A DNA stretch of 64,000 nucleotides from an uncultured Clostridia bacterium (GTDB lineage Bacteria > Bacillota > Clostridia > Oscillospirales > Ruminococcaceae): contig CANQPL010000009.1 in the NCBI GenBank assembly GCA_947625735.1, positions 20,076 to 84,075 on the forward strand, written 5' to 3'. A program made the position numbers and the translations under genes. Shown here piece by piece: positions 1 through 12,299 of the stretch; the first letter of the stretch is position 1, and each line of letters opens with the position of its first letter. A model generated the notes under the pieces. That model did no database searches. It was not told the DNA's origin and was given only the letters and a program-made list of their open reading frames with translations.

Positions 1-1
1 A

Positions 2-595
2 AATCCTTTTGCACATCTTATGTACTGCGGTCTTTGCGGTCATGCAATGGTACGCAGACCATACCCCGACCGTGAAGCGGCAATGCTTTGCATATATACC
101 CAATGTCCTTGCAGATCCTCTGATATGAGTAAAACTGAGCAGCTTGTAATTTCAGCATTGCATGAGGGGTACAAAGAGTATATGGCTATGGCAGAAAATA
201 ACGTTAAGCTCCCGCCGTCAAATGAAAGTGAGCTTGAGCTGATTAGTTCTGAAATAAAGAAAGCGGAAAAACAGCAGTCCAAGCTGTATGACCTGCTTGA
301 ACAAGAAATATACACGCCCGAAGTATTTACCGAGAGGAATAAAATTATAAGTGAGAAGTTATCAGATCTGCGTTTCAGAGCCGAACAGCTTAAAAATAAA
401 AAAACGAGCAGCATCTCTCCGAGAGAAGCTGCGATGGCAATAAAAAATGTTATTGATAATTACTATAGCTGTACCTGTGCAGAGGAAAAAAATGATCTTC
501 TGAAAACTGTCTGCGAAAGCATAAGCTATGCTAAGCAGGAAGGCGGCAGATGGGCAGCATCTGATGCTGTATGTAAGATCACATATATTTTTTAA
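2..595 (+). CDS. Large serine recombinase, C-terminal part (5' end lies outside the window)
   Basis: Frame stays open to the window edge (NPFAHLMYCGLCGHAMVRR..., recombinase zinc-ribbon with CxxC), then a coiled-coil-like C-terminus; typical of the C-terminal half of large serine recombinases. Confidence 0.8.
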   Translation, partial: NPFAHLMYCGLCGHAMVRRPYPDREAAMLCIYTQCPCRSSDMSKTEQLVISALHEGYKEYMAMAENNVKLPPSNESELELISSEIKKAEKQQSKLYDLLEQEIYTPEVFTERNKIISEKLSDLRFRAEQLKNKKTSSISPREAAMAIKNVIDNYYSCTCAEEKNDLLKTVCESISYAKQEGGRWAASDAVCKITYIF

Positions 596-597
596 TA

Positions 598-816
598 TCA
601 TTGATATGATAAATGAGCAAGTTCTTCCGTACCGATATCCGTCATAATTCCCTGCACCTGAGGATAGGGAGCGGTATATCTCTGACAGAGATATCTCTGA
701 GAAGCGGCAAGCTCGCCGTCAGGACCTCCGAGCTGAGTAATTATCATCTTAGCAAGGGCGGGATTTTTGTTTTTTATTTTGACGGGGTATTCCAGCTTTT
801 TTTCATATAACCACAT
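598..816 (-). pseudogene. cotJC: Truncated spore coat protein CotJC (N-terminal ~70 aa only)
   Basis: MWLYEKKLEYPVKIKNKNPALAKMIITQLGGPDGELAASQRYLCQRYTAPYPQVQGIMTDIGTEELAH matches CotJC (Mn-catalase family) N-terminus; ORF stops right after EELAH at the recombinase gene boundary. Confidence 0.85.
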
Positions 817-818
817 GA

Positions 819-1073
819 TCAGTTAGCCTCCTTTTCCCACGGCGCAGGACCCTTTACCCACTCAAAGACATTATCGCAGTCGGAGTCGATAGGTGTCAGA
901 GGACCGTAAGCCGCAATATATGCATCGGCTGCCTGCTTTCTTAAAGCCTTGTATTTTCTGAAAGCGGAAAGACCGTTTTGACAGGTGGGGTGGGTATCAA
1001 GATAAAGCGTAAGCTCATAAAGATAAAAATCATACATCTGAATGGCACGCATGAGTCTTATTTTATTTTCCAT
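819..1073 (-). CDS. cotJB: Spore coat protein CotJB
   Basis: Size and motifs (YDFYLYELTLYLDTHP...; AYGPLTP) and position between cotJA and cotJC. Confidence 0.85.
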   Translation of the reverse strand: MENKIRLMRAIQMYDFYLYELTLYLDTHPTCQNGLSAFRKYKALRKQAADAYIAAYGPLTPIDSDCDNVFEWVKGPAPWEKEAN

Positions 1074-1278
1074 ATTTCAGGACGCCCTCCTTACCGTAGA
1101 ATGGCAGATCAAGAGAGGGAAAGATCGTCCCCTTTGCAAGGGCGATGTTTTCCGCATACGTTTCCTCCCACTGCTGGAATGGCACATATGCCATAGCGTA
1201 TGGCGTTTCTGACGGGAATTTTCCCTTAGGACTGTCAAGCCCCTCTGCGCTGCATTTGCCGTTTGCATTGCTGTACAT
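1063..1278 (-). CDS. cotJA: Spore coat associated protein CotJA
   Basis: Short ORF with AMAYVPFQQWEETYAENIALAKGTIFPSLDLPFYGK, typical CotJA; overlaps cotJB start. Confidence 0.85.
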   Translation of the reverse strand: MYSNANGKCSAEGLDSPKGKFPSETPYAMAYVPFQQWEETYAENIALAKGTIFPSLDLPFYGKEGVLKYGK

Positions 1279-11977: not shown

Positions 11978-12299
11978 ATGTACCCCTCCTGTACATATCA
12001 TAACACATACAGTCTTTTAAAGTCAATAAAAGATCGGTAAGCTGCATATTTTAAGGGGTAATATGCATTAAATGCCGCTTTTACAGACAGAATAGTATCC
12101 GCTGTCAAAGCTATGGTGATCCCGCTGCAAATCGGCTTTATGAATTTTCTTTCGCTAAATTCCGTAAAACTGTTGACTTCCATGAAATAATCATGTATAA
12201 TAAATAACAGATTGTGAATGCATTTGAATTTCATTTCTGCAAGTCTGCCTGCGTGATCTGCACAGACAGCATAAACGATCGTTATCTGCATGAAAGGAA

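Follow-up and report, generated by a model that had tools for sequence, protein, structure and literature searches.

Intervening elements have been described in the sporulation genes sigK, spsM, spoVFB, gerE, yabG and kamA (PMC5595907, PMC10747680, PMC4191935, PMC6957869), and excision at the time of sporulation has precedents in the release of SPbeta from spsM, of gin from gerE and of skin from sigK (PMC4191935, PMC5595907, PMC5025042). In the case of skin, a serine-recombinase element splits sigK and recombination between short repeats restores the gene, the elements of B. subtilis and C. difficile making use of different large serine recombinases (LSRs) and of different places in sigK, so that the presence of several sites in one gene is not without precedent (PMC6957869). 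SPbeta in spsM and phi3T in kamA of B. subtilis are LSR phages residing in sporulation genes (PMC4191935, PMC6957869), gin in gerE of B. cereus is an intervening element devoid of phage genes, having three serine recombinases and a 9-bp shared sequence (PMC5595907), and yin in yabG of C. botulinum, described as unique to one strain, and vfbin in spoVFB of B. weihenstephanensis are single elements in mother-cell genes (PMC10747680). The literature that was found describes such sporulation elements as isolated instances, with one per gene, whereas five integrase lineages target the 600 bp of cotJC in many families of Clostridia.

In B. subtilis cotJ is a mother-cell operon. The closest relatives of the present host that bear a name are uncultured Ruminococcus-, Oscillospiraceae- and Pseudoruminococcus-like bacteria, and its family is probably Acutalibacteraceae or one close to it. 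The stretch of DNA analysed here (the window, 64,000 nucleotides) corresponds to positions 20076-84075 of contig C9 in a draft genome of 108 contigs; the cotJ features at its left end, the other pieces of cotJC and the five attachment sites discussed below are collected in the table.

Table. Features of the split cotJ locus and attachment sites within cotJC (plain positions refer to the window, those preceded by C12 to another contig of the same genome; attachment sites are given as CotJC residues)
Feature	Position	Strand	Remarks
3' part of LSR1 (serine recombinase, element 1)	1..595	+	gene starts to the left of the window
5' piece of cotJC	598..816	-	PF05067, E 2.7e-21; complemented by the two pieces on C12
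Crossover repeat GAACTTGCTCAT (site B2, attachment site of element 1)	613..624	-	second copy at L007:1638-1649 (contig C12)
cotJB	819..1073	-	PF12652, E 7.7e-26
cotJA	1063..1278	-	PF11007, E 5.4e-18
Middle piece of cotJC	C12:1638-1853
C-terminal piece of cotJC	C12:12191-12388
Site A	G30-G31		core GGNGG
Site B1	G62		core GG(T)
Site B2	E65 (element 1)		core GAA
Site C	A134-A135-E136		core GCNGCNGA
Site D	F173-G174-E175		core TTYGGYGA; C-terminal tail separated in eight genomes

The initial annotation had placed on the minus strand intact cotJA and cotJB genes and a cotJC ending abruptly after about 70 amino acids, next to the stop codon of a large serine recombinase. The domain matches bear this out, the PF05067 match covering residues 1–69 only and the open reading frame stopping 2 nt from the LSR1 stop codon; the piece encodes residues 1 to about 68–69, followed by four codons of element DNA and a stop (...MTDIGTEELAH+LSYQ*). 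The right end of the element, which had been set at 598–612, is indeed beside cotJC, but the crossover lies slightly rightward, inside the 12-bp repeat. That the host sporulates is plausible, as had been surmised, since SpoIVA and full-length sigma-K/E-like factors are found in its genome.

The missing 3' part of cotJC had been predicted to lie at the distal end of the element, flanked by a short direct repeat near GCTCAT. Both the repeat, at the two ends of element 1, and the missing part are present, the latter, however, as two pieces on contig C12 (L007) and not as one, because a second element, sitting outside the window and hence beyond the view of the initial annotation, separates them. 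Indeed, a Mn-catalase search of the genome matched profile positions 1–70 in the window, 61–157 at C12:1623-1871 and 147–198 at C12:12188-12343, i.e., three complementary pieces. The 12 bp shared by the end of the N-terminal and the start of the middle piece (GAACTTGCTCAT) and the 9 bp shared by the end of the middle and the start of the C-terminal piece (GCAGCAGAG, C12:1845-1853 and 12191-12199) are direct repeats at which the three pieces can be fused, in frame, to a CotJC of 199 amino acids, which reads ...TDIGTEELAHVEMISAIVYQ...DLHEDMAAEQKARTTYDN... to ...YAFNPEFDVR and aligns without gaps with intact relatives. No second, intact cotJC was found by this search of the 108 contigs, no sign of decay is apparent in the pieces, and no excised (rejoined) junction was seen in this genome. 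A match on C13, considered as a possible second cotJC, was rejected, being a distant 169-aa rubrerythrin/ferritin-like protein. The C-terminal piece on C12 is adjoined by the gene of a sporulation-type sigma factor that resembles sigG in position and domains.

The anatomy is therefore skin-like, as originally proposed: LSR elements interrupt a sporulation gene within its coding sequence, beside cotJA and cotJB, each with its own recombinase about 20 bp from a junction, and the short end repeats restore the reading frame with the complementary distal piece. LSR1 (502 aa, C9:19162-20670) and LSR2, a different LSR, are both full length and carry the Resolvase, Recombinase and zinc-ribbon domains (PF00239, PF07508 and PF13408, the zinc-ribbon match in LSR1 being below its cut-off), the three-domain, ~500-aa organization of large serine integrases.

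Element 1 has the structural, packaging and lysis genes of a tailed-phage prophage: on the C9 side LSR1, beside the N-terminal piece, is followed by repressor-like, replication, terminase, SPP1-type portal and minor-capsid genes, and on the C12 side a holin and an amidase are found at the contig start, the ends having been read on the two contigs and the middle being absent from the assembly. It thus resembles SPbeta and phi3T, which differ in being one per gene and in residing in other genes and other hosts. Element 2 (10.3 kb) lies between the middle and C-terminal pieces, integrated at codon E136; its first gene is LSR2 and its cargo encodes an HD-domain protein, TraX, LytR-CpsA-Psr, Wzz, a ParA-like ATPase, a tyrosine integrase and a CarD-like protein; genes for capsid, portal, terminase and tail are missing from the eight main open reading frames that were scanned. 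In this respect, and in the 9 bp shared by its two ends, it is comparable to gin, from which it differs in its target and in having one LSR and one tyrosine integrase instead of three serine recombinases. The exopolysaccharide-type genes (Wzz, the ParA/CpsD-like ATPase, LytR-CpsA-Psr), the HD-domain protein and the second, tyrosine-type integrase at L007:3841-12015 are an unusual cargo for an intervening element.

Split cotJC genes recur among relatives. Within the genus, G007 has both of these sites filled, G001 and G009 only the first, and the gene is intact in G012 and G019. In a family sample of 398 genomes, 280 of which match the Pfam family and 80 of which were examined in detail, cotJC is split in at least 58, at five recurrent sites, a count that is a lower bound because a full-length paralogue can mask a split cotJC and because genes split at site D appear almost complete. 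The counts exclude full-length PF05067 paralogues that score ~100 bits against cotJC, and also G409 and G317, rejected as split genes since the overlaps seen there (110 and 119 bp) are between contigs. Directly adjoining cotJC fragments near site B with no element between them (G464:C16, G601:C23, G615:C24, G652:C33) were not counted either; they look like frameshifts or sequence errors, an imprecise-excision scar being another possibility.

Junctions and pieces were read in 66 genomes (four of which are the genome of the window or came from the search of the genus), where 68 of 68 junctions join in frame without a stop; the 62 rejoined genes, of which the family sample contributed 58, are all free of stop codons and the Mn-ligand residues are kept in nearly all. 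An in-frame join by itself is weak evidence, short repeats being common, and the analysis of the cores described below is the stronger one. In a class-wide sample the same breakpoints appear in many other families, and also in single-contig genomes such as G519 (sites A and B), G439 and G561 (B). The gene is split in the single-contig genome G354 as well. Two or three elements occur in one gene, with every piece intact, in G000, G007, G354 and G257; in the last, sites A, B1 and D are occupied, the three LSRs share one contig and the tail is on another, so that its cotJC is in four pieces, as it is in G536 of the class-wide sample, and the same three sites are all filled in G131. The elements are patchily distributed, close relatives differing in the sites that are filled. 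In G238 and G687 surplus cotJC fragments (five and four matches, respectively) perhaps represent two split copies or mixed strains, and in the single-contig genome G151 a distance of 675 kb separates two cotJC pieces of the same strand (L132 and L133, G151:C1:198620 and 873266), with an LSR at one of them, indicating either a very large rearrangement or a misassembly, the copy being beyond restoration by simple excision.

When the cores are read in a fixed reading register, the two ends of the elements are found to be identical mainly over short cores that are particular to each site. In a tree of 65 LSRs the sequences group according to site: A and C form one clade each (100/100), B forms two clades that correspond to B1 and B2, and D forms one (row G223_D_L079_1, located inside B1, had been wrongly labelled D on the basis of distance); wherever it is readable, the LSR beside a site belongs to the clade of that site. 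CotJC residues E35, E65, H68, E136 and H169 align with Glu35, Glu66, His69, Glu148 and His181, the Mn ligands of the L. plantarum Mn catalase of solved structure (1JKU). All five cores are within five codons of a Mn-ligand codon, the chance of this for five random sites being ~0.0005 in a post hoc test. DNA conservation accounts in part for the site choice, all five sites lying in the more conserved 29% of cotJC DNA, though not in its most conserved windows. Since elements at A to D separate ligands or local motifs, the unexcised fragments would not be expected to form a metal site.

Two pairs of species sharing an element allowed selection on the split gene to be estimated, and in both cotJC dN/dS is near 0.01 or lower. 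G096 and G253 have a common A element (LSR region 96% identical) and their cotJC genes show dS 0.20 and dN 0.002; G257 and G198 have a common B1 element, homologous at both ends (91% and 86%), and show dS 0.38 and dN 0 over 172 codons. For the LSRs dN/dS is 0.04–0.13, and the B1 LSR of G257 and G198 is more diverged (dS 0.59) than cotJC. Such strong purifying selection is hard to reconcile with a cotJC that is permanently off, although the signal could partly reflect loss and re-infection. The A site occupied in G257 is empty in G198, which offers a natural view of the uninterrupted junction.

As to mobility, LSR1 alone retrieved no viral relative, but with alignments of the clades as queries relatives of the cotJC LSRs were found on viral contigs, of which 45 retain part of cotJC. 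On viral contig L389 the two arms of the A element of G312 (95% and 80% identical) meet at a short core, without cotJC, so that the contig represents an attP; the core of L389 is inverted (CCGCC), in line with the occurrence of elements in either orientation. The same inversion with respect to the G312 arms is seen in the A-type phage attP cores of L389:3900-4060, L388, L390 and L459 and would flip the orientation of integration. The 43-kb viral contig IMGVR_UViG_2593339269_000002 (L304, L395) contains an A-type and a B2-type LSR together with cotJC pieces, two elements in one gene having been called a single virus. Dorea DO134P1, Terrisporobacter TVCOM_ph1 and Thermoanaerobacterium THSA-485A were considered as cultured cotJC phages and rejected, for they have B2-like LSRs but lack a recognizable cotJC core next to the integrase; the isolated phages with B2-like LSRs thus yielded no cultured phage of this kind.

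At the level of sequence, the split anatomy, the exact in-frame joins, the full-length LSRs, the correspondence of five sites with five clades, the purifying selection and the attP of a close relative suggest that the cotJC elements are probably intervening elements of the skin type, whose excision in the mother cell would restore a coat catalase. According to this model, two LSR elements, a tailed-phage prophage at E65 and the 10.3-kb element at E136, have integrated independently into cotJC, a spore-coat gene of the Mn-catalase family; upon sporulation a directionality factor, presumed to exist for each LSR and belonging to a class whose members are small and diverse, would switch it to excision, the flanking direct repeats would recombine in the mother cell and the two excisions would rebuild an uninterrupted cotJC downstream of cotJAB, the forespore genome retaining the elements. 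That excision occurs in this organism, at this time and in this cell, is expected by analogy with skin, SPbeta, gin and yin. It also seems reasonably likely, if somewhat less so, that across Clostridia cotJC is a composite gene with multiple interruptions, five LSR lineages having converged on the codons near its Mn ligands, with up to three elements and with two or three timed excisions all needed for one coat protein. The exact fit of the pieces and the same few cut sites beside metal-binding codons in dozens of related species suggest a restitching at spore formation. On the other hand, the restoration of cotJC may matter little, since mutants of cotJC-like genes of C. difficile had, as cited in PMC11222575, lower catalase activity and no clear coat defect.

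The main competitor of developmental excision is the view that ordinary temperate phages and integrative elements use the conserved cotJC codons as attB, lysogens being without CotJC until induction or loss and the gene being conserved as most lineages are usually element-free. The phage nature of element 1, the free-phage attP form of a related element and the patchiness of the elements, with filled sites varying between close relatives, all agree with this view, which we nevertheless regard as unlikely given that dN is zero or near zero over dS 0.2–0.4 in species with an element at the same site, that 62 split genes are without a stop and that two or three elements coexist in genes all pieces of which are intact; furthermore, phage structural genes are absent from the frames scanned in element 2, so that induction alone would not explain the upkeep of this element. 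The 62 stop-free rejoined genes likewise contradict the idea that the insertions destroyed cotJC, leaving the pieces as remnants of a decayed pseudogene: as it stands the gene cannot encode the full protein, but the exact repeats, the lack of frameshifts, the retention of the Mn ligands in nearly all cases and a dN/dS far below 1 render decay very improbable. A split gene may also be mimicked by chimeric contigs, and the genome in question is a draft in which the middle of element 1 is unassembled; the chance of such an artefact is practically negligible, the same sites being split in dozens of other genomes, including the single-contig ones, and the LSR adjacent to a site being always of the matching clade where readable.

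The cotJC elements differ from skin in that the target is a coat catalase and not a sigma factor, in that a single gene has five sites, each with an LSR clade of its own, and can contain as many as three elements, and in that excision is predicted; unlike yin, they recur across many families. Insertion at strongly conserved, catalytically essential codons followed by precise removal is also a property of inteins and mobile introns, which the cotJC elements resemble in this one respect, no membership being claimed, and from which they differ in that their removal would occur at the DNA level by site-specific recombination. A search of the open-access literature yielded no report of cotJC elements, so that "unreported" is provisional. 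The convergence of five lineages on one gene makes possible a comparative study of the evolution and control of developmental DNA excision; a rule whereby integrases aim at metal-ligand codons helps to explain target choice and predicts other targets, and the recombinases, together with the attachment sites that match them, offer a supply of orthogonal integrases whose sites are defined.

Two genomes bear on the state of the sites within a population. The contigs of G008 (L013, L139, L477) fork exactly at the site-D crossover, and in G014 (L142, L143, L484) filled and empty site D are both present, with one base difference between them; owing to this difference a mixture of strains is no less possible than different states of a single strain, and the forks only hint at coexisting excised and integrated states, or else at strain mixtures. 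In the same G014, a C-clade LSR (L142:13885-15714) is located ~70 bp downstream of the cotJC stop codon and faces cotJC, at a place where no element end is expected, perhaps as the result of an inversion or of a second attachment site.
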